Below, piece by piece: positions 53,672 to 63,955 of a DNA stretch of 64,000 nucleotides (positions within the stretch are counted from its first letter, which is position 1; every line of letters begins with the position of its first letter). The notes under the pieces are model-generated. The model did not search any database, was not told where the DNA came from, and was given only the letters and a program-made list of their open reading frames with translations. The DNA comes from Salinivenus lutea (GTDB lineage: Bacteria > Bacteroidota > Rhodothermia > Rhodothermales > Salinibacteraceae), in assembly GCA_002894685.1 (NCBI GenBank), contig NCRC01000003.1, positions 1 to 64,000 of the forward strand, given 5' to 3'. The translations under genes and the position numbers were made by a program.

Positions 53672-53816
53672 GCATGCCCCCGCGGGCTTCACATTGTGGG
53701 AGTGTTCCACTATCCTTCACACACCCTTCCGGCCGAGTTCAGCTTTGCACATCTTCTCCGGAGCCGGGGCGGCCCCTCTCCGCTTCTGTCCCTTTCCGCA
53801 CCCCGTCGCAGTGCCA

Positions 53817-53969
53817 ATGGACGGCGCCCCCGATTCTTCCCAGTTCTGGGCCAAGCTCAAATACAGAGATGGCGACCGCTCGACCGGCGAGGTCGTCGCC
53901 TGGCACCCACTCCTCGCCCACTCGGCGGACGTGGCGTCTCGGTTGGTTGATCTAAAGTACATTCTCTAA
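53817..53969 (+). pseudogene. 5' remnant of a second cas3
   Basis: A 50-codon frame whose first 46 residues read like a Cas3 N-terminus: SSQFWAKLKYRDGDRSTGEVVAWHPLLAHSADVASRLVDL. The HD nuclease motif WHPLLAHSADVA is almost the same as in the intact cas3 at 54557 (WHPLVAHSADVA), and the DNA is nearly identical over about 35 bp. The upstream FWAK segment differs from that of the intact gene, so this is probably the start of another cas3 allele cut off after the first helix, not a simple tandem copy. The frame ends in TAA at 53967-53969. Confidence 0.7.
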
Positions 53970-53985
53970 TTCACCCCGACAGCCG

Positions 53986-54138
53986 ATGATATCACAACAC
54001 GACAAAAACACCATCCCCGACGATCTACCACTCCGTACTCGACAGATGCTAGACGCCCTCGGCGCGGCACCGACGAATTTAGACCTCGACGACGATATGG
54101 AGGCCTGGGTCGATGCGATGCACGAAAAGCATGAGTAG
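53986..54138 (+). CDS. Small hypothetical ORF upstream of cas3
   Basis: A 50-residue frame with an ATG at 53986, ending in TAG at 54136-54138. The product is acidic in its second half (LDALGAAPTNLDLDDDMEAWVDAMHEKHE), like host proteins, and has a basic/polar start. It resembles the size and charge of a short antitoxin, but no partner or DNA-binding motif is visible. It begins 16 bp after the cas3 remnant. Codon use is host-like; coding status is uncertain. Confidence 0.4.
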   Translation: MISQHDKNTIPDDLPLRTRQMLDALGAAPTNLDLDDDMEAWVDAMHEKHE

Positions 54139-54556
54139 CTTCATATCAAGTGCTCATTCAGCAGCCCATGGCAATTTCCCTTTCGCCCTGATGACATCCG
54201 AACGCTGATCGACGATCAGAACGAAGGCGGACTCTTCGGGACAGTTACATTTGTCTCGTCTGCGGCTTCACATCCCTCTGTGCTCTCCCCGAAAACAAGT
54301 GGTGCGCACTTCTCGATCTTACCTCCTGCAACTGTCAGCAGACTCTCTCAGTCCGTAAGGTCCATCACTCCTCATTCGAGGTGCGGGGTCCATCCGAAAG
54401 ACTGGACCGAAAAATCCCGGCGTCCCGCTTCCTGGCGCTCGTGTTTGAATAACCGCTTCTGGGCAATCCGGACATGATTCGTCCGGATCCTTATGGCGAC
54501 TTCCTATCTTCCGGATGCATTAATGCGGCCCTCTTCTATCCTTTTCTCTTTTCCCC
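54139..54556. other. AT-richer non-coding stretch before cas3
   Basis: About 420 bp with visibly lower GC than the flanks and no convincing gene. Frames that stay open here (for example 54280-54477, + strand) have Ser/Arg-rich compositions unlike the acidic host proteins. Fragments such as PWQFPFRPDDIRTLIDDQNEGG hint at a decayed coding sequence. No full CRISPR repeat or hairpin of the 61011 type is seen. It should contain the cas3 promoter. Confidence 0.45.
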
Positions 54557-57121
54557 ATGGATCCACTTTGGGCAAAGCACGACGGCCCCGATGAATGGCA
54601 CCCGCTCGTGGCCCACTCGGCGGACGTGGCCGCAACGCTGGAAATGCTCCTCAGGCATACCCGTCTTGGCCGACGGATGGCTCGCCTAAGGGGCCAAACG
54701 AAACTGTCGGAAACGCAGGTGCAGCGGCTCTGCGTACTAGCCGTCCTCCACGACGCTGGCAAGACCAATCCGTGGTTTCAACACCGCTCTACCGGAGAGG
54801 GGCGCACGTGCGATCACGTTACGCCAGTCGTCCACATGCTCCACGACAAAGAACGGTGGGGCAGCCTCTCAATGGCCATGGGCCTTGAGGAGCTGTATTC
54901 CTGGTTTGGAGATGAATGGGGGGCAATGGACTGGCTGCAAATCACCTGGAGTCATCACGGGCGTCCCGTTTCGGTCGAGCAACCGGACAAAAACCTATGG
55001 CCCGGCGACTCCCTCCAGCGGTTGTCTCGGGTTCTCGGATGGGCTCGTCAGTGGTACCCGGATGCATTTGAAAACGACGCGCCGCCGTTCGAGTCTGCTC
55101 CGGTGCAGCACCTGTTCAACGGCGCCCTCACTCTGGCGGACTGGATTGGCTCAGACACCAATCTCTTTAAAATGGATCCGGGCCGTACCAATCCGGACGA
55201 TGCAATTGATGAGGCTCGCGGGCTCGCCCTGGATGCGTTGAAGGACGTAGGCCTAACAGTGTCTCGGAACCTCGACAGCTCGCTCATCACCATTCTCGAC
55301 GGCAACGAGCCCTACGACATTCAAGAGGCACTCCAGTCCCTCCCGACATCCCCCGAGGGGACCCTGACGGTGTTGGAGTCGGCCACCGGCTCCGGGAAGA
55401 CGGAGGGCGCACTGGGTCGCTACGCTCATCTGCTGGAAAAAGAGCGGGTGGACAGTATGTATTTTGCCGTTCCGACCCGGGCGGCGGCAAAGGAGCTTCA
55501 CGGGCGGATCAAAGATGCCCGGGACCGTATGTTCGGAGAAAACGGACCGCAGGTTCATCTTGCCGTACCCGGATACCTAAAAGTGGACGACGTGGAGGGC
55601 ACCCGATTCGGCTGGCAGGTGCGCTGGGATGAGGATGTGGGACGGCGCGGGTGGGCAGCGGAATCGAGCAAGCGATACACGGCCTCGCCCATCGCCGTGG
55701 GCACCATTGATCAGGTCTTGATGTCCACCCTGAAGGCGTCGCATGCCCATCTCCGCCTCGCAGGACTCGCCCGCAGCTTCCTCGTGGTGGATGAAGTGCA
55801 CGCGTCCAGCACCTACATGAACGAACTCCTACAACGGGTGCTCTCGCTCCATCACGACATGGGCGGGCACGCCCTGCTCATGTCGGCCACGCTCGGTGCG
55901 GAGGCCCGAGCTGAATTTACTGGCGAGGACGTTCCGGACTTCGACAACGCCAAAGACCAAGAGTATCCTCGACTGACGCATGTCAAAGGGGGGACGATCG
56001 TTGACCTCGACCAGCCGAATGCCCCGGGTGAAAACAAGAAAGACGTGTCGTTTTCCCTCAAAGGATGGATGCGCACCCCGAAATCCATCGCTCGGTGTGC
56101 CGAAGCGGCTGCAGCGGACGGTGCTCACGTGCTCGTCATTCGAAATACAGTGAAGGCGTGTCAGTCGCTCTTCGAGGAAATCGACGAGCAGTACGCTCTG
56201 CAAATCGAGTATGAGGGGCGCGAGATTCCTACCCCTCACCACTCTCGGTACTGTCCTGCTGACCGCGAGACCCTCGATGACCGAGTCGAAGCCGTCTATG
56301 GAAAGCACGAGATCAACGAGAATGAGGAAACCCGCATCGTTCGCCCCACCGACGGGAGTGTCGTTACGGTAGCCACCCAGACGGTCGAGCAGTCGCTGGA
56401 CATCGATGCGGACCTTCTGATTACTGATCTGTGCCCGATGGATGTGCTTCTGCAGCGCATCGGGCGATTACATCGACACAATCGCGAAGGACGGCGGCCT
56501 TCTGAATACGACGATCCGCACTGCATCGTCCTTACGCCGGCGGCACCCGACATTCAGACCACCATCGACCCCGAGAGCGGAACGGGATATCCCGGCCCCG
56601 GTCTTGGCTCGGTGTACGGCGACCTGCGCATGATTGAGGCAACTTGGAACGCGCTCAAAAAACGGGCACGCTCACAGTCGTCTCTTTCCATTCCCGATGA
56701 GAACCGAACACTCGTTGAGGAGGCCACTCATCCAGGTAAGCTATCGGCCATCGCCTCAGAGGGAGCATGGGAGGTACACGCGCAAGCGGTTCGAGAATCG
56801 GAGCGCGAGGACGTGATGCGTGCCTTGAACAGTGTGATCGACCGAACCCAACCCTTTCTGGATCGCGATAATCAGTTTTCCGGCGAGCGTCCCAAAACTC
56901 GACTCGGAGACGAGGGAATCGTCGTCGCTCTTCCGGAAGAGATGACAACCCCGTTTGGACACTCCGTCGAGGAACTGACCCTCTCGCCCTACCACTTCGG
57001 CCGCGGCGACCGTCCGGCAAATGGGGAGGCCTCCCGAGCCGACCCAAAGGACGAAGGCTTTGAATTCACGTTCGACGGCGAGGACTTCACGTACACTGCG
57101 CTTGGCATCCAAAAGAAGTAG
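54557..57121 (+). CDS. cas3: CRISPR-associated helicase-nuclease Cas3 (type I-E)
   Basis: An 854-residue protein that unwinds and degrades target DNA recruited by Cascade. The N-terminal HD nuclease shows WHPLVAHSADVA (His15, His20, Asp23) and LHDAGK (His65, Asp66), plus SHHGRP. The SF2 helicase follows: Walker A ESATGSGKTEG near 275, DEVH in FLVVDEVHASSTYMNELL near 410, SAT in LLMSATLG near 440 and motif VI QRIGRLHRH near 632. The protein seems intact. Its stop (57119-57121) overlaps the GTG that could start cse1, so translation is probably coupled. Confidence 0.95.
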   Translation: MDPLWAKHDGPDEWHPLVAHSADVAATLEMLLRHTRLGRRMARLRGQTKLSETQVQRLCVLAVLHDAGKTNPWFQHRSTGEGRTCDHVTPVVHMLHDKERWGSLSMAMGLEELYSWFGDEWGAMDWLQITWSHHGRPVSVEQPDKNLWPGDSLQRLSRVLGWARQWYPDAFENDAPPFESAPVQHLFNGALTLADWIGSDTNLFKMDPGRTNPDDAIDEARGLALDALKDVGLTVSRNLDSSLITILDGNEPYDIQEALQSLPTSPEGTLTVLESATGSGKTEGALGRYAHLLEKERVDSMYFAVPTRAAAKELHGRIKDARDRMFGENGPQVHLAVPGYLKVDDVEGTRFGWQVRWDEDVGRRGWAAESSKRYTASPIAVGTIDQVLMSTLKASHAHLRLAGLARSFLVVDEVHASSTYMNELLQRVLSLHHDMGGHALLMSATLGAEARAEFTGEDVPDFDNAKDQEYPRLTHVKGGTIVDLDQPNAPGENKKDVSFSLKGWMRTPKSIARCAEAAAADGAHVLVIRNTVKACQSLFEEIDEQYALQIEYEGREIPTPHHSRYCPADRETLDDRVEAVYGKHEINENEETRIVRPTDGSVVTVATQTVEQSLDIDADLLITDLCPMDVLLQRIGRLHRHNREGRRPSEYDDPHCIVLTPAAPDIQTTIDPESGTGYPGPGLGSVYGDLRMIEATWNALKKRARSQSSLSIPDENRTLVEEATHPGKLSAIASEGAWEVHAQAVRESEREDVMRALNSVIDRTQPFLDRDNQFSGERPKTRLGDEGIVVALPEEMTTPFGHSVEELTLSPYHFGRGDRPANGEASRADPKDEGFEFTFDGEDFTYTALGIQKK

Positions 57122-57126
57122 TGCCT

Positions 57127-58638
57127 ATGAATTTGCTTTACGATTCCGTTTTCACGGTCGACACGTCCGACGGACGCACAACCTGCAGCCTGCCGCGCAT
57201 TTATTCGTTGTTGGACGCCGACGCAGTTGAGGGCTTCTCACGTCTTCAGGCGCATCAAAAACAGGCCTGGCACTGCTTTCTCGCCCAGCTCGGCGCGATT
57301 GCTACTGAAGAGCGGAATATTCCTGATTCAGAGAACGGGTGGCGCGATGCACTGTCGGCCCTCACAGACGACGCCGCCTGGAATCTGTACACCGAAGACC
57401 TGAGAAAGCCGGCATTCATGCAGCCCCCGGTGCCGGAAGACACGCTGGAGGACTTCGCCCCGATTCACGTCACCGAGTACGATGTGCCCACCCTCTCAAA
57501 GAATCACGCGCTCAAGACGCGGCGGATGCACGACCCCGACGATGAGCACTGGGTGTACATGCTGGTGAATGTGCAGACCACGGGATTCTACGCCGGATCG
57601 GGAAATCGGCGGACCTCCCGCATGAACGGCAGCTACGCCAGCCGCCCGTTTTTCGGCCTCACGCCGAGCCTACGGCTGGGGCCGTGGATTATGCACGACA
57701 TCGATGTGTTGCGCACCCACGTCGATAAGATTGAACAGCGATACAACTTTCGGCGCGAGGCCACGCCGCTGCTCTGGACCGAGTCCTGGGACGGCACCGA
57801 AAGCTTCGACCTCGAAGAGCTGCATCCGCTGTACATCGACTGCCCACGACGCATCCGGCAGGGCAAGACGTGGATGAAGACGAGCACGTCCGCCGAGCGC
57901 GTAACGGGCGATGTCAACGGGCAAACCGGCGATCCGTGGGCGCCCATTGACGAGCGGGAAAACAAGGTGCTCAACCCGAGCCGGAATGCATTCGAGTATA
58001 GACAGTTGTCGGAAATCCTCTTCGGCGACCGGTACCGACTTCCCGTCAGTTTCGAGGAAGAAACCAAGGGCTACGTGGTGTGCCGCGCCGTGACCGGCGA
58101 GCAGGGCGGACGGGTGCACAACCTCCAACGGGTAGTCAAATTTTCCAACCGCCGTCGCGTCTGGGGTGAAATTGAGCAGGAGGCCGAACGACGCGTCAAA
58201 CGGGCGGAAACGGCCGCCGAGATTCTCTCGCAGGCGCTCTACCTCATGCTCAAAGACGACCGGGATGACGGCAAACGGGAGCAGGTCCCCGACCGCCTCC
58301 AGGAGGGACAGAATCGACAGATTAACGCCTTCCACGAGCGTGTAGACAGGTGCTTTTTCCGATACCTCTTGGAAACGCCGAATATCAGTGCCGAGCACAG
58401 AAATGCCTTCTGGGATACCATCCTGGTAGGGGCACTTCGGTCCCAGTTCGACGAAGCCAGGCACCTATGCCCCGAAAAAGACCGGTGGCACCGACAGGCG
58501 CGTGCACAGTCGGCCTTCGACAACCGGATCAAATCCGAATTGGATTACGCCAAACAGTTCGCAAACGATCATGATCACACAGACAGAGAACAAGACAGAA
58601 TCGAAAAACCCGACGGAACGGCTGTGGCAAACGTATGA
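57127..58638 (+). CDS. casA: Cascade large subunit Cse1 (CasA, Cas8e)
   Basis: The subunit that recognises the PAM in type I-E Cascade; 503 residues from the ATG at 57127 (MNLLYDSVF), or 505 from a GTG at 57121 overlapping the cas3 stop. The N-terminal NLLYDSVFTV is typical of the family. A Gly/Asn/Arg loop (FYAGSGNRRTSRMNGSYASRPFFGLTPSLRLGPWIMHDID) corresponds to the L1-like region near the foot of Cascade. The C-terminal helical bundle is rich in Glu/Arg (EIEQEAERRVKRAETAAEILSQALYLML). It overlaps cse2 by 68 bp. Confidence 0.93.
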   Translation: MNLLYDSVFTVDTSDGRTTCSLPRIYSLLDADAVEGFSRLQAHQKQAWHCFLAQLGAIATEERNIPDSENGWRDALSALTDDAAWNLYTEDLRKPAFMQPPVPEDTLEDFAPIHVTEYDVPTLSKNHALKTRRMHDPDDEHWVYMLVNVQTTGFYAGSGNRRTSRMNGSYASRPFFGLTPSLRLGPWIMHDIDVLRTHVDKIEQRYNFRREATPLLWTESWDGTESFDLEELHPLYIDCPRRIRQGKTWMKTSTSAERVTGDVNGQTGDPWAPIDERENKVLNPSRNAFEYRQLSEILFGDRYRLPVSFEEETKGYVVCRAVTGEQGGRVHNLQRVVKFSNRRRVWGEIEQEAERRVKRAETAAEILSQALYLMLKDDRDDGKREQVPDRLQEGQNRQINAFHERVDRCFFRYLLETPNISAEHRNAFWDTILVGALRSQFDEARHLCPEKDRWHRQARAQSAFDNRIKSELDYAKQFANDHDHTDREQDRIEKPDGTAVANV

Positions 58639-59065
58639 CGACCTGCCGAATGGTGCTCAGGCCGAGCTTCGGCGAGGTACCCCGTCTGGACCCTTCTGGC
58701 GTATGCTTGCCAGTGTCGGCGAGGAGCGAGAACCCGATTCCAAAAAACTATCTAAATGGAAGCTTCTCATCCAATGCGTGGCTATCGCTGGGTATTCGGG
58801 GACACCGTTCGGTCTTGCTCTTAAACAGGCCGAGTATTCGGAAGCTCGTCTGAAGCGCCTTCTGGAAGCCGACAACGACCAGCTTTCAACACTCCTCCGT
58901 CGTACAGCCAAGCAGCTCGCCAGCGCCGACCAGAAAGCCAACTGGAATACGGTTCGAAGACTGCTCTTCGAAGAGGAAGAAGTGGAGGAGGTTCGTCTCC
59001 AAATCGCACAGGAATACTACACCTACGACACGAATTCGAATCAAGACGACAGTCCCGATGAGTAA
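58571..59065 (+). CDS. casB: Cascade small subunit Cse2 (CasB)
   Basis: A 164-residue helical protein, two copies of which line the belly of Cascade and stabilise the R-loop. Recognised by LPNGAQAELRRGTPSGPFWRMLA, GYSGTPFGLALKQAEYSEARLKRLLEADNDQLSTLLRRTAKQLAS and WNTVRRLL. The start at 58571 makes an unusually long 68-bp overlap with cse1; no clear in-frame start after the cse1 stop keeps the conserved first helix. The codon use is less GC-rich than in the neighbours. Its 3' end overlaps cas7e by 8 bp. Confidence 0.9.
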   Translation: MITQTENKTESKNPTERLWQTYDDLPNGAQAELRRGTPSGPFWRMLASVGEEREPDSKKLSKWKLLIQCVAIAGYSGTPFGLALKQAEYSEARLKRLLEADNDQLSTLLRRTAKQLASADQKANWNTVRRLLFEEEEVEEVRLQIAQEYYTYDTNSNQDDSPDE

Positions 59066-60317
59066 ATTTCTGCAGTTCCACACGCTCACCTCCTACCCCG
59101 GAACCTTACTGAACCGGGATGACGCCGGATTCGCGAAGACCCTCCCTTTCGGCAATGCCATGCGGACCCGCGTGTCCTCACAGTGCCTCAAGTATCACTG
59201 GCGGCACTACGACGGCAAGCACGCCATCCGAAAGGCGGGCGACATGTCCATTCGCTCCCGCCGGACCTTTCGAAAAAAGATTGCCGACGAGCTCGTCGAG
59301 GACGGATTCGACGAGCGGCTGACGGCCGCCGTTACGTTCGGCATTTTGGAAATGGCCCGGAACGGCGACGTGACGAAGGGGAAAATCAAGGACAACGTGC
59401 AGCCAGTGCTTGAGGCGGACGCCCCCCTCGACGAGCTCACCATCAAGAACATCGTCGTCTTCGGCAAGCCGGAGATTGACTACCTGAAGTCCGTGGCCGA
59501 AGACACGCTGACCGCTCTCAAGGAGAAGGACTACGACGAAGATAGTGTCGCCCAGACGCGGGACGCCATCGCCGACCTGCTCAGCACTAAGGAGTTGAGC
59601 AACAATCTCCGCGGGATGAGCAACGCAATGGGCATCGACGCTGCCATGCACGGACGGATGGTGACCAGCGACGTGCTAGCTCAGGGCGACGCCGCGGTTC
59701 ACGTGGCTCACGCCATCACGACCCACGCGCAGCAGCGCGAAGACGATTACTTTACCGCGGTCGATGAGCTTCACGATGAGGGAACCGGCGGGGAGGAGGC
59801 CGGGGCGGCCCTCATCCAGAGCAAGGAGTTGACCTCGGGGCTGTTTTACAGCTATGTCGTCGTGGACGTGCCGCTGCTGGTGTCGAACCTCGAAGGCTGC
59901 GCCCGTAGCGAGTGGGTGAACGCGGATCTCACCCTTACGACTGACGTGCTCCAGCGCTTCCTCCATACGATTACGAACGTCTCGCCGGGAGCGAAGCTGA
60001 GTTCAACAGCGCCGTACGCGAAGGCCGAGTTCGTCATGGTCGAAAGCGGCGAAGAACAACCCCGAACGCTCGCGAACGCTTTCAAGGAAGCCGCCGACGG
60101 CGACAATCTCTTGGAAGCGAGTGTTCAGAAACTGACGCAGTACACCCACGACATCGACGAAATGTACGGACAGAAAGTGGATGGGGAAATGGTCCCGCAC
60201 GAGGACCGAATTTGCGCGACCATGGCCGACGCTGAGGTCCCCGCTCCTCGAACGACTGTCAGCGAGATCGCCGACGACTGGATTCCGTCTCAGCTCACAA
60301 CCTCCACAGGCGCATGA
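59058..60317 (+). CDS. casC: Cascade backbone subunit Cas7e (CasC/Cse4)
   Basis: A 419-residue RAMP-type protein that forms the six-subunit backbone along the crRNA. Family marks: FLQFHTLTSYPGTLLNRDDAGFAKTLPFGNAMRTRVSSQCLKYHWRHY at the start (RDD-AG-K and R-R-SSQ-K pattern), VAHAITTHAQQREDDYFTAVDEL, GAALIQSKELTSGLFYSYVVVDVPLL and PGAKLSSTAPYAKAEFVMVE. It overlaps cse2 by 8 bp and cas5e by 4 bp, so the Cascade genes are translationally coupled. Confidence 0.94.
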   Translation: MSKFLQFHTLTSYPGTLLNRDDAGFAKTLPFGNAMRTRVSSQCLKYHWRHYDGKHAIRKAGDMSIRSRRTFRKKIADELVEDGFDERLTAAVTFGILEMARNGDVTKGKIKDNVQPVLEADAPLDELTIKNIVVFGKPEIDYLKSVAEDTLTALKEKDYDEDSVAQTRDAIADLLSTKELSNNLRGMSNAMGIDAAMHGRMVTSDVLAQGDAAVHVAHAITTHAQQREDDYFTAVDELHDEGTGGEEAGAALIQSKELTSGLFYSYVVVDVPLLVSNLEGCARSEWVNADLTLTTDVLQRFLHTITNVSPGAKLSSTAPYAKAEFVMVESGEEQPRTLANAFKEAADGDNLLEASVQKLTQYTHDIDEMYGQKVDGEMVPHEDRICATMADAEVPAPRTTVSEIADDWIPSQLTTSTGA

Positions 60318-60997
60318 CTGTCTCTATTCTTCGATTCGAAGCCCCGATGATGAGTTTTGGGGCACCCATCGTCAGTGAGGAAGGGCGCATCCAACCCTAT
60401 CCCGCCCTGTCCATGATGACGGGGCTGCTTGCTAATGCGCTTGGCTACGACCGGAGTGAGGCCGAAAAACACGAACGTCTCCAGCAGGCCCTCTCCTACG
60501 CAGTACGGGAAGATGTCCCCGGCGCAAAAATCGTGGACTATCAGACTGCGGACCTCGGCCAGCCACACCTGCAGGCAAAGGGCAAGCGCGATAGCGTGGC
60601 CTGGACGACGTGGGGACATCTCGACCAGCGCGGTAGCGGAAATACGGACACGACAAACATTCGCCATCGGGAATACTGGGCCGATGCGCAGCACACCGTC
60701 GCGCTCCAAGTAGAGAATATGTCCGCGGCCGAGATTCGGGAGGCGTTGGTTCGTCCCGAGCGTCCGCTGTTTATCGGCCGCAAGCCGTGTCTCCCCGCGG
60801 AGCGTCTGTTTCGAACCACTGTGGAGGCTGAATCGCTTACGAACGCGCTTCAGCGTTCAGAAACGATTCCGGATGATGTGATGCCGCGGCGTCTCTGGCG
60901 GGAGTCCGACGCGGGCACTCCGGTCACCGATGCCCGCGACTGGACGAATCAGATTCACGTTGGCGAGCGCCGCGTCGAGGAAACAGAATTCCCGTAG
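60314..60997 (+). CDS. casD: Cascade subunit Cas5e (CasD)
   Basis: A 227-residue RAMP protein that binds the 5' handle of the crRNA. The N-terminal VSILRFEAPMMSFGAPIVSEEGRIQPYPALSMMTGLLANALGYDRSE and the central RPERPLFIGRKPCLPAERLF are type I-E Cas5 signatures. It is the last gene of the tightly overlapping cas3-cas5e block. After its stop (60995-60997) the order is broken by a 163-bp gap carrying the mini-CRISPR at 61011-61100. Confidence 0.93.
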   Translation: MTVSILRFEAPMMSFGAPIVSEEGRIQPYPALSMMTGLLANALGYDRSEAEKHERLQQALSYAVREDVPGAKIVDYQTADLGQPHLQAKGKRDSVAWTTWGHLDQRGSGNTDTTNIRHREYWADAQHTVALQVENMSAAEIREALVRPERPLFIGRKPCLPAERLFRTTVEAESLTNALQRSETIPDDVMPRRLWRESDAGTPVTDARDWTNQIHVGERRVEETEFP

Positions 60998-61010: not shown

Positions 61011-61100
61011 CATTCCCCCGTTCCCACGGGGATAGACCGCCCCCTTTCATACGTACGATACCGTATTTCCCAGTGACTCCACATCCGTGGAGAACGTCTT
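61011..61100 (+). CRISPR. Degenerate repeat-spacer-repeat mini-array inside the cas operon (CreA/CreR-like)
   Basis: Unit one (61011-61039, 29 nt) has the exact layout of a type I-E repeat: 5 nt, stem CCCCGT (61016-61021), loop TCCC, stem ACGGGG (61026-61031), 8-nt tail ATAGACCG (compare the E. coli tail ATAAACCG). Then 32 nt (61040-61071), the canonical I-E spacer length. Unit two (61072-61100, 29 nt) has a different sequence but the same layout: 5 nt, stem CTCCAC (61077-61082), loop ATCC, stem GTGGAG (61087-61092), 8 nt. The stems are exactly 61 nt apart. Cas6e, encoded 61 bp downstream, should cut such hairpins. The structure is seen directly; a regulatory crRNA-like function is inferred from known CreA/CreR elements of Cascade operons. 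Confidence 0.65.
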
Positions 61101-61160
61101 GCTCATCCGGTCGGAATTGAACTTCCATAACAATCCTCCTTTCCAAACGCCCTCTGTAAA

Positions 61161-61940
61161 ATGCCAGACTTGCACATGGTGCAGCTCGGCCTCGACGCCA
61201 AAGGCCTCACCACGCTCGGCAAAATGCTGCACCTGCCCCTTGCCCAAACCGACACCGGCTACCTCGTCCACTGCGCCCTCGGCGAGCTTTTCGGGGATGA
61301 CGCCCCTCAACCGTTCAGCATCGAGAACGAATCCGAGAACGGCCGGCGGGTGCGCGTCCTCGGCTACGCCGACGCGAACGCCGATACGCTTCAGTCCCAC
61401 GCCCAGCTCGACGCTAGCCCCACGGTCTACGAGATCTGCGCCTGGGACCGGCTCGCCGCCAAGCCCATGCCGGAGACGTTCCCGGAGGGCATGCCCCTCC
61501 GGTTCGAACTCCGCGCCTGCCCCGTCGTCCGCAAAGCCTCCGCGGGCGAGGGCATCAATCAGAACGGCGACACACGCACCTGGGAGGAGGGCGACGAGCT
61601 CGACGCCTTTCTCGCCGAGGCCTGGAAAACCCCCGGGGAGGACCTGAACCGCGAACAGGTCTACCGCGACTGGCTGGATCGACAGTTTGAGATCCGCGGC
61701 GGCGCCGAGGTGGATCCCGACGCGATCACCATGCAGCGGTTCTCCATCGAGCGCATGACGCGCCGCGTCCCGAAGAATGGGAGCAGCGAGCGAAAAGCCG
61801 ACACGATCAAGCGCCCCGACGTGACCCTCACCGGCACCCTCCAGGTCACCGACGGCGACGCGTTCGTGGACCTCCTCCGCTCCGGCCTCGGGCGGCACAA
61901 GAGCTTCGGCTACGGGATGCTCAAGGTGCGACGGGCGTAA
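61161..61940 (+). CDS. casE: crRNA-processing endoribonuclease Cas6e (CasE/Cse3)
   Basis: A 259-residue RAMP-fold endonuclease that cuts repeat RNA and stays bound to the 3' hairpin. The likely catalytic His37 is in TGYLVHCALGELFGDD; the C-terminal hallmark is RPDVTLTGTLQVTDGDAFVDLLRSGLGRHKSFGYGMLKVRRA, with the Gly-rich RAMP loop. Unlike the overlapping upstream genes it has its own 5' region containing the mini-array, and its codon use is more GC-rich, which suggests separate expression or history. The ATG at 61161 is taken as the start. Confidence 0.94.
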   Translation: MPDLHMVQLGLDAKGLTTLGKMLHLPLAQTDTGYLVHCALGELFGDDAPQPFSIENESENGRRVRVLGYADANADTLQSHAQLDASPTVYEICAWDRLAAKPMPETFPEGMPLRFELRACPVVRKASAGEGINQNGDTRTWEEGDELDAFLAEAWKTPGEDLNREQVYRDWLDRQFEIRGGAEVDPDAITMQRFSIERMTRRVPKNGSSERKADTIKRPDVTLTGTLQVTDGDAFVDLLRSGLGRHKSFGYGMLKVRRA

Positions 61941-62016: not shown

Positions 62017-62376
62017 ATGCTACCTCGTCCTGAGCCGTACGACGATCTTGGCTTCACCGGAGATGCGCGGCGCGCACTGATCGACCGCGACATCTCTGCT
62101 GGGGAGGTGCGGCAGGCCCTGCATGAGGGTATGGTCCTCCGCGTCTATCCGGAGACCACTCCTACAGCCCGACTCCTCCTCACCTGGATGGACCGGGAGG
62201 CGATCTTTGGGACCTACGACCGGGGACGCCCTGTTCATGTAGTTGCGTCCAACAATGACGAAGCGAGACGCACGACGATCATCACGACCTACGAGCCGGA
62301 TCCCAATCAATGGATCGATCAATTCCGATGGAAACGGACCTGGACCAGCGAGACGAACACGTGGAGACAAGCCTAA
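62017..62376 (+). CDS. DUF4258 protein, probable toxin of a toxin-antitoxin pair
   Basis: A 119-residue protein. The C-terminal half AIFGTYDRGRPVHVVASNNDEARRTTIITTYEPDPNQWID is the DUF4258 signature (ligand/RNase-like small domain, terminating in TxYEPD-x-W). The N-terminal part (FTGDARRALIDRDISAGEVRQALHEGMV) fits the family. Such genes are usually followed by a YgiT-type zinc-finger gene, as here (62310-62633, overlapping by 67 bp), and the pair is annotated as a putative type II toxin-antitoxin module. It interrupts the usual cas6e-cas1 order. Confidence 0.85.
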   Translation: MLPRPEPYDDLGFTGDARRALIDRDISAGEVRQALHEGMVLRVYPETTPTARLLLTWMDREAIFGTYDRGRPVHVVASNNDEARRTTIITTYEPDPNQWIDQFRWKRTWTSETNTWRQA

Positions 62377-62633
62377 CTCCGGGTCACCCGTGCCGACAGT
62401 GTCCGGAAGGCACCTACGAAAAAGGAACGGTCACGGAAACCCTCGAACGAGGGGATACCGTCGTGGTCGTAAAAGACGTGCCGGCCCTCGTGTGCGACGT
62501 ATGCGGCAACTCGCTGCTTGCGGAGGAGGAAGTCGAGCGGTTGCAGCGCATCCTCGAGCAGGCCGAGGCTCAAAGCGTCGAGTTGCAAAGCCGCCGCTAC
62601 CAGCCACTTCAGGAAGTGGGGAAGAACTGTTGA
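62310..62633 (+). CDS. YgiT-type zinc-finger protein, probable antitoxin
   Basis: Up to 107 residues from the ATG at 62310, or 101 from an ATG at 62328. The zinc finger has two CxxC pairs: CRQC near residue 28 and CDVC near residue 62, in the MqsA/YgiT N-terminal pattern (VKDVPALVCDVCGNSLLAEEEVERLQRILEQAEAQ). No full helix-turn-helix antitoxin domain follows, so this is the short form. It overlaps the DUF4258 gene and ends 37 bp before cas1, so it is likely to be part of the cas transcript. Confidence 0.85.
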   Translation: MDRSIPMETDLDQRDEHVETSLTPGHPCRQCPEGTYEKGTVTETLERGDTVVVVKDVPALVCDVCGNSLLAEEEVERLQRILEQAEAQSVELQSRRYQPLQEVGKNC

Positions 62634-62670: not shown

Positions 62671-63564
62671 ATGGCCCTCAAAGGACGCCTCGGCCTCGAA
62701 ACCGCCCGCGTGCCCCACGCCGACCGCCACGGGCTCATGTGGCTGGAGCGGGGGCGGCTGGCCGTCGAGAACGGCAACCTCGTCTTTACCACCGCCGGCT
62801 TTGACGACCTGGAGGCCGGGGCCTACGACATTCCCTATCAGCAGGTGTCCAACATCCTGCTCGGCCCCGGCGGCGTGGTGAGCCACGACGCCCTCCGCAT
62901 CCTCGCCCGCCGCGACACCGGCCTGCTCGCCGTCGGCTCCAAGGGCGTGCGCCTCTACGCCGTGAGCATGCCGTTTGGCCCCGACAGTGCCGACCGCGCC
63001 CGACGTCATGCCACCCTCTGGGCCGACGAGGACGCGCGTGTCGACGTGGCCCGCGCGATGTATCGCATCCGGCTTGGCGGCGAACTGCCGGCTCACCAGC
63101 GCGACCTCAACTCCCTCCGGGGCATCGAGGGACGGCGCGTGAAAAAGGTCTACCAGAACCTGGCCGACCAGTACGGGGTGGAGTGGAACGGACGCCGCTA
63201 CGACCGCGACAACCCCGAGTCGAACGACACCGTTAATAAGGCCATCAACCACGCGGTGACGGCGCTGTACGCCTCGGCCCGCATCGCCGTGGCCGTGACC
63301 GGCACCGTGCCCGAACTCGGCTTCATCCACGAGTCGTCCGGGCATGCCTTTGCGCTCGATATTGCGGATCTCTTTCGGAGCTCCGTCGCCCTACCTATTG
63401 CCTTTCAGGCGACGAAGAATCTGGAGCGGCGGCCCGACCGGAGCGTGGAGGGCACGACCCGTCGGCTGGCCGGGCGCACGCTCCGGGACGACGACGTCAT
63501 TCCCGACATGATTGACAAAATAAAGGAGGTCCTCGATGTCGATGACGATCGCGGTGACGCGTAA
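62671..63564 (+). CDS. cas1: CRISPR integrase Cas1 (type I-E)
   Basis: A 297-residue integrase subunit that inserts spacers. By alignment to E. coli Cas1 the metal ligands are Glu153 (LRGIEGRRVKKVYQNLADQYGV), His220 (GFIHESSGHAFALDIADLFRS) and Asp233. The N-terminal beta-domain (GLMWLERGRLAVENGNLVFTT) and the GVVSHDALRILARRDTGLLAVG segment are typical of subtype I-E. All active-site residues are kept. It overlaps cas2 by 29 bp. Confidence 0.95.
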   Translation: MALKGRLGLETARVPHADRHGLMWLERGRLAVENGNLVFTTAGFDDLEAGAYDIPYQQVSNILLGPGGVVSHDALRILARRDTGLLAVGSKGVRLYAVSMPFGPDSADRARRHATLWADEDARVDVARAMYRIRLGGELPAHQRDLNSLRGIEGRRVKKVYQNLADQYGVEWNGRRYDRDNPESNDTVNKAINHAVTALYASARIAVAVTGTVPELGFIHESSGHAFALDIADLFRSSVALPIAFQATKNLERRPDRSVEGTTRRLAGRTLRDDDVIPDMIDKIKEVLDVDDDRGDA

Positions 63565-63955
63565 CACGCCCGGCCGGTTCGATGGCTTCCTCTGCTCCTG
63601 TATGCAGGAGATTGCCCCCGGCACCTACGTTGCGCCCACCATGTCGGTGTCGGTTCGTGAGCGGGTGTGGGGGGTGCTGATGGAGTGGGAGGGACTGTTG
63701 CCCGACGAGGACGCCGGCGTGGTCTTTTTCTGGCGCGACGCCGAGGCCCCCTCGGGGCTTCAGATTCGCATGCTCGGCTGGCCGAAGAAAGAGTTCATCG
63801 AACACGAAGGGGTGTGGCTCACGCTCCGCGATCTGACCGAGGCGCACGATGTGGAAGAATTGCTGGAGCAGCAGGACCCGGAGGAGCCGTCCATCGATGC
63901 GGACGACCCGATGCTTTTCAGTCCGGACCGGCTGACGACCGACGGAGACGCGTGA
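63536..63955 (+). CDS. cas2: Cas2 (type I-E, E. coli type)
   Basis: A 139-residue partner of Cas1 in the integration complex. The I-E type N-terminus TIAVTRNTPGRFDGFLCSCMQEIAPGTYVAPTMSVSVRERVWGVLMEW and GVVFFWRDAEAPSGLQIRMLGWPKKEFIEHEGVWLTLRDL fit the family; about 40 extra acidic residues form the tail, and there is no fused DnaQ domain. ATG at 63536 or 63542. The frame overlaps the end of cas1. The CRISPR array is expected just downstream. Confidence 0.93.
   Translation: MSMTIAVTRNTPGRFDGFLCSCMQEIAPGTYVAPTMSVSVRERVWGVLMEWEGLLPDEDAGVVFFWRDAEAPSGLQIRMLGWPKKEFIEHEGVWLTLRDLTEAHDVEELLEQQDPEEPSIDADDPMLFSPDRLTTDGDA

Follow-up and report, generated by a model that had tools for sequence, protein, structure and literature searches.

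The window, the whole stretch of DNA analyzed here, is the 64-kb start of a contig of 168 kb in the 3.55-Mb genome of a member of the Salinibacteraceae, and it carries a type I-E CRISPR-Cas operon. The genes of this operon lie on the plus strand in the order cas3 (54557-57121), cse1 (cas8e; 57127-58638), cse2 (58568-59065), cas7e (59058-60317), cas5e (60314-60997), an intergenic gap, cas6e (61161-61940; the sole cas6e found in the genome), a gene pair, and cas1e with cas2e (62671-63955). The real array follows just past the window, from contig position 64894 onward, and has 10 repeats (GGTGCCCCCGCATCCGCGGGGATAGACC). The gene pair between cas6e and cas1e (window positions 62017-62630) is a DUF4258/YgiT-zinc-finger (MqsRA-like) toxin-antitoxin pair, with a close relative in the related genome G012 and a more distant one in G005.

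The gap between cas5e and cas6e holds a mini-CRISPR of two repeats and one spacer (61011-61099). It spans 163 nt, as against 13-72 nt in the related loci that we read, except for one with degenerate arrays (in related loci we measured from the stop codon of cas5 to where the cas6 match begins). A preliminary description of this DNA had placed two repeat-like units at 61011-61039 and 61072-61100 with stems 61 nt apart, and this we confirmed; the stems are separated by exactly the repeat-plus-spacer period of the native array (a 28-nt repeat plus 33 nt). The first unit, PsiR1 (61011-61039, plus strand), reads CATTC-CCCCGT-TCCC-ACGGGG-ATAGACCG, in which ATAGACCG is the predicted 5' handle, and consists of a 28-nt degenerate repeat and a 29th base, G. 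The second, PsiR2 (61072-61099, or to 61100 with the 29th base, plus strand), reads AGTGA-CTCCAC-ATCC-GTGGAG-AACGTCTT; its stem is CTCCAC/GTGGAG and its tail is lost, as is also the case in array-terminal repeats. Between them lies a 32-nt guide (61040-61071, plus strand). The architecture of the units is as had been described, except that the native repeat has 28 nt and the 29th base is variable. In a count of 265 spacers from the host genome and its relatives, it was C in 144, T in 84, G in 35, and A in 2, and it behaves like a PAM-derived base.

Both units resemble the native repeats. PsiR1 is related to the repeat of the real array, matching it at 21 of 28 positions and in all of the last 7 nt (7/7), with a 6-bp stem, and a pattern search of the whole genome listed it, with zero mismatches, beside the array repeats. 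PsiR2 matches the array repeat at 18/28 overall. Over the first 22 nt, the best match of PsiR1 to native repeats is 16/22 and that of PsiR2 is 16-17/22, the 17/22 being against the second native array repeat (contig C57, GGTGACTCCGCACACGCGGAGATAGACC). Relative to the native repeat, the stem of PsiR2 carries compensatory changes that keep the pairing. We aligned 13 repeat-like units with 3 array repeats, drawn from this locus and related ones. Every stem cell was paired, and double changes occurred in four of the six pairs; because the rows were picked for the stem, this is support and not proof. When the gap was dinucleotide-shuffled 20,000 times, 0.02% of the shuffles had a perfect 6-bp stem in exact register, and none (0/20,000) combined such a stem with at least 17/22 identity, in register or elsewhere in the gap. 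The alternative of a chance hairpin next to one relic repeat, which the preliminary description had allowed for, was rejected on this ground.

By eye, the leader-end motif of the genome's four arrays is absent upstream of 61011. A promoter and terminator scan of the gap predicted neither, and an Rfam search of the element gave no match. The element was not conserved among the relatives examined. A type III system as the processor of the repeats was rejected, the genome having no match to any RAMP family.

Targets of the guide in the host genome proved to be weak. No site that combines an AAN PAM with a 10/10 seed match occurs in the whole genome, and a genome-wide seed search returned only sites with one mismatch, the best of which (contig C23, between tmk-like and fur-like genes) is at about chance level. 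Even the strongest sites within the locus are marginal (p about 0.05). One lies before cas6e on the plus strand (61132-61143; AAT PAM followed by CCtCCTTTC, seed 7/10 with a mismatch at position 3, p 0.058) and the other inside cas3 on the minus strand (54912-54922; seed 10/10, PAM TGC, p 0.0175 without a PAM requirement). The suggestion that the element represses its own operon thus found no support in the genome. Nor did the idea of an antitoxin: as had been remarked before, no CreT is evident, and neither a CreT nor a CreP gene was found adjoining the mini-CRISPR. On the plus strand, the 13 nt upstream and the 61 nt downstream of the element contain no start codon with an ORF before cas6e (this search covers ORF-encoded toxins; sequence cannot exclude RNA toxins without an ORF). 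A minus-strand ORF through the element, with an SD-like sequence and an ATG at about 61130, was considered as a CreT and rejected, its middle being the mere antisense of the guide.

The type I-E effectors of the order fall into at least two clades. Clade A, the sister clade, usually has a region of 80 to 1700 nt between cas3 and cse1, whereas clade B, which includes the window, is tight; the resident cse1 is about 35% identical to that of the sister clade. Debris of a clade-A module sits upstream of the resident cas3, all on the plus strand: roughly the first 50 codons of a sister-module cas3 (53815-53969, by eye), a degraded DUF6364-type antitoxin gene that in sister modules stands between cas3 and cse1 (53986-54138, by eye), and a frameshifted remnant of a gene that we call gapX (54151-54437), which lies away from the mini-CRISPR. 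A clade-A cse1 is absent from the genome. In G005 (L042) and G015 (L048), two I-E effector modules are arranged in tandem and have one common cas6e-cas1e-cas2e; clades A and B therefore do meet. Neither G005 nor G015, in which both modules are present, has a gap element of the window type.

Instead of a site in its own genome, the guide matches the cse1 (cas8e) of the sister clade. The first lead, the cse1 of G012, came from a family-wide extended-seed search, and a full-length scan of relatives showed the guide to be antisense to the conserved GNYGIVRMNGG motif of clade-A cse1. Identity is 26/32 in G086 and in pSR118, 25/32 in G040, G433, G021, G424, and G004, and 23-24/32 in several further genomes; the clade-A cse1 genes of G006, G008, and G015 match more weakly (20-21/32). 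In control searches, the best letter-permuted guide in 3000 trials reached 24/32 and the best of 265 array spacers 24. The seed (positions 1-5 and 7-11) is perfect in G012, G040, G433, G026, G005, G010, and pSR118, and the PAM is AAC, AAT, AAG, or AAA in most clade-A targets. That the PAM is AAN we infer from the targets of the relatives' mini-CRISPRs (see below) and the 29th-base statistics, as distinct from viral protospacers; a different PAM could be read by the resident clade-B Cse1. A direct PAM measurement by comparing array spacers with phages and plasmids yielded no protospacers, and an exact search for the guide in IMG/VR gave no match.

Cascade leaves every sixth position of type I crRNAs unpaired. 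Positions 6 and 12 are such unpaired positions (PMC8501985), and of the 27 positions that pair, 22-24 match in the clade-A cse1 targets, within the coding region. The plasmid pSR118 of Salinibacter ruber SP73 carries a complete clade-A I-E operon with long arrays, and its cse1 site has the PAM AAG, a 10/10 seed, and 26/32 identity, with 24/27 positions pairing once every sixth is left out. The G at the 29th base of PsiR1 is what would be expected if the spacer was acquired at an AAG PAM. Most mismatches between guide and cse1 affect the third position of a codon (P from 2e-4 to 4e-6 for six of the seven genes, and 5e-3 for the seventh). The antisense of the guide differs from the motif at two residues, both N-to-K, and the guide may therefore have drifted. 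In all clade-A genes, similarity stops at the spacer borders, the flanks matching at 5-10/28, as by chance; a cse1 pseudogene fragment in the gap was rejected for this reason. At the same motif, the resident cse1 (57632, minus strand) matches the guide at 17/32 positions with PAM TAG and an 8/10 seed. Thus, with the rival cse1 well matched and its own poorly, the guide separates rival from self.

Mini-CRISPRs of another kind occur in the sister modules. In seven clade-A loci (those of G010, G016, G026, G013, G006, G008, and G424), the cas3-cse1 region contains a mini-CRISPR, a terminator-like hairpin, and gapX, a conserved gene of about 145 codons, and this cassette is present or absent as one unit (L045:6205-6860, L052:8073-8710, L053:7994-8651, L049:6321-6962, and the loci of G013, G008, and G424). 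When we searched within 150 nt with no PAM required, the best seed match of each guide, in all seven cases, was on the minus strand upstream of its own first repeat, at 12-73 nt (five at 35-42), and was preceded by AAC or AAT. The single p-values range from 0.001 to 0.04, except in G008 (0.49). Position 6 is often mismatched, which fits the published seed rule of positions 1-5 and 7-11 (PMC8501985), and in G010 and G424 the target site, by eye, abuts a TTGACA-like element. Judged by sequence, these mini-CRISPRs look autoregulatory and fit what is predicted for a CreR/CreA-type autoregulator; elements of the type that had been proposed for the window, with seed targets, do therefore exist in related I-E loci. 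In G006 (L049) and G424 (L080) the guides are just 21 nt long (33 minus 12), which suggests that Cascade is shortened there and may bind its target but not cut it. The gapX gene was found in 7/7 loci with such a mini-CRISPR and 0/8 loci without one (G040, G086, G433, G021, G015, G024, G005, and G012), kinship being ignored in this count. It matches PHROG 28860 (function unknown) and no Pfam or PADLOC model, and its relatives are found away from cas genes too; its AlphaFold2 fold (two sequences, pLDDT 68) bears a weak likeness to Hjc and restriction nucleases, on which we drew no further.

Two known themes seem to meet in the element in the window, that of degenerate regulatory mini-CRISPRs and that of anti-cas spacers. 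The creA antitoxin genes of CreTA systems (PMC8501985, PMC9458426) likewise lie in a cas gap and consist of one spacer between two repeats that have degenerated divergently, and in creA the first handle and the second hairpin are kept and a leader is missing (PMC8501985). Here, too, two cognate repeat-like sequences surround one spacer in a cas gap, PsiR1 retains its 3' handle, PsiR2 retains its first 22 nt, and no leader is visible by eye. In contrast to creA, there is no adjoining creT or creP under the control of the element, and at a toxin or resident cas promoter in the genome we found only weak sites in place of a PAM with a 1-5, 7-11 seed match. Thus the label CreA/CreR-like, under which the element had been introduced, is supported in that the element is a leaderless mini-CRISPR whose repeats belong to the cognate family and have degenerated divergently, as in creA; it is not supported in the sense of an autorepressor of the resident operon or an antitoxin. 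CreR RNAs that regulate cas genes are reported for types I-B, I-E, and V-A (Liu 2023, as cited in PMC13131331 and PMC12737573); they resemble the element here in being mini-CRISPRs that lie within a cas locus and match a cas gene, and the relatives' elements resemble them closely. Unlike CreR, the guide in the window matches, over its length, a cas8e that is foreign or has been lost, within the coding region, and not a resident cas promoter. The closest known counterparts are anti-cas spacers, here in a creA-like setting. Orphan CRISPR4 arrays of E. coli carry such spacers (Almendros 2016, as described in PMC8616872). CRISPR4 guides match cas genes that related strains have and the host does not, and are regarded as excluding the cognate system; such targeting may in turn cost the host its own genes. 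The guide described here similarly matches a cas gene of related systems that is missing from the host. However, CRISPR4 is an I-F array that stands alone, with no cas genes, whereas here a single degenerate-repeat unit sits in an intact-looking I-E operon, and its guide points to the sister clade within that subtype.

We lean modestly toward the explanation that this leaderless mini-CRISPR would serve, within the operon, as a hard-wired anti-cas guide against sister-clade cse1, stabilized by the degeneration of its repeats. The mini-CRISPR would be part of the cas operon transcript, from which the neighboring Cas6e would release one 61-nt crRNA (61032-61092, plus strand). Given that I-E Cas6e cleaves at the base of the stem, and with a computed fold, this RNA is predicted to comprise an 8-nt handle (AUAGACCG), the 32-nt guide, and a 21-nt hairpin, of which we infer PsiR2 to be the source. 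Loaded with this RNA, the resident Cascade would be guided to the cse1 of sister-clade I-E modules and spare its own, and incoming sister modules, such as that of pSR118 of Salinibacter ruber, would be destroyed or silenced; the near-complete pairing favors destruction over mere repression. The element may also have helped to remove, or may once have regulated, the sister module whose debris precedes cas3. Consistent with an anti-cas spacer, the matched gene belongs to related systems and is absent from the host, and several targets, pSR118 included, have an AAN PAM and a 10/10 seed compatible with interference. Against it count the lack of a predicted promoter in the gap, the poorer matches in G006, G008, and G015, the two N-to-K differences from the motif, the chance that the resident Cascade reads another PAM, the tandem sister and resident modules of G005 and G015 (both of which lack the element), and the occurrence of the element in one genome. 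More tentatively, and with somewhat less than an even chance in our estimation, the operon may carry a hard-wired guide, resistant to recombination, against the most conserved cas8e codons of the competing clade, and the module may thereby purge and exclude its rival, the upstream debris being the result.

A different history would have the guide as the relic of a CreR-like RNA that, in an ancestor with both modules, throttled the sister cse1 through partial intragenic complementarity, its target now gone and the element decaying. The tandem modules of G005 and G015, the sister-module debris in this genome, the autoregulatory-looking mini-CRISPRs of sister modules elsewhere, and the wobble mismatches, which leave partial complementarity, all agree with such a past. 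We nevertheless consider it unlikely, since known CreA and CreR guides fit promoters essentially via the seed (PMC8501985, PMC13131331), whereas here 22-24/27 positions match in a coding region, and since decay would not be expected to leave the handle and the two stems perfect. It is also improbable that the guide is a CreR proper, acting as a repressor of the resident operon through the cas6e leader (61132-61143) or a site in cas3 (54912-54922). An AAT PAM with a 7/10 seed ahead of cas6e, a 10/10 seed within cas3, and the CreR reported for type I-E (PMC13131331) speak for it, yet the p-values of about 0.06 and 0.02 leave no multiple-test margin, the cas6e site is mismatched at seed position 3, the cas3 site has the PAM TGC, and the relatives' targets are mostly far stronger and located upstream.

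Just as doubtful is a leftover fragment of an ordinary array, with a spacer acquired from an incoming cse1 and no present use. The tail loss shared with terminal array repeats and the G at the 29th base, which agrees with acquisition at an AAG PAM, suit this origin, whereas the repeats have diverged independently with stems and first handle intact, no leader is present, and the unit sits between two cas genes. Finally, both hairpins lie just upstream of cas6e in the same predicted transcript, and Cas6e might cleave them in its own leader and so limit its own mRNA, the guide being irrelevant; this post-transcriptional switch seems very improbable to us, for it leaves unexplained the intact handle, the 61-nt register, and the cse1 match.

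If the anti-cas reading is true, CRISPR effector modules compete directly, encoding fixed immunity to each other, and such competition would help account for replacement among sister modules. The relatives' elements, for their part, add a group of type I-E mini-CRISPRs that look autoregulatory and are linked with an uncharacterized gene, gapX.

Further repeat units were noted in the host genome and a relative. A second degenerate two-repeat unit of the same architecture lies outside the cas locus (L039:10104-10192, contig C3, minus strand); its first repeat keeps the handle ATAGATC and its second is without a tail. A solitary repeat past the array (L002:14287-14347, contig C13 66287) looks like an old array terminus, and the next 33 nt recur at 31/33 positions at the end of an array in G012. 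On contig C2, a two-repeat I-E mini-array with a leader-like end (L038:9841-9929) lies near a phage portal-like gene, beside an unrelated 30-nt repeat in three copies with 66-nt spacing (L038:9386-9547); this region is possibly prophage-borne. In G003 (L054), degenerate arrays flank cas6e on both sides; the last repeat of the upstream array has no tail, and an extra hairpin follows it before cas6e.
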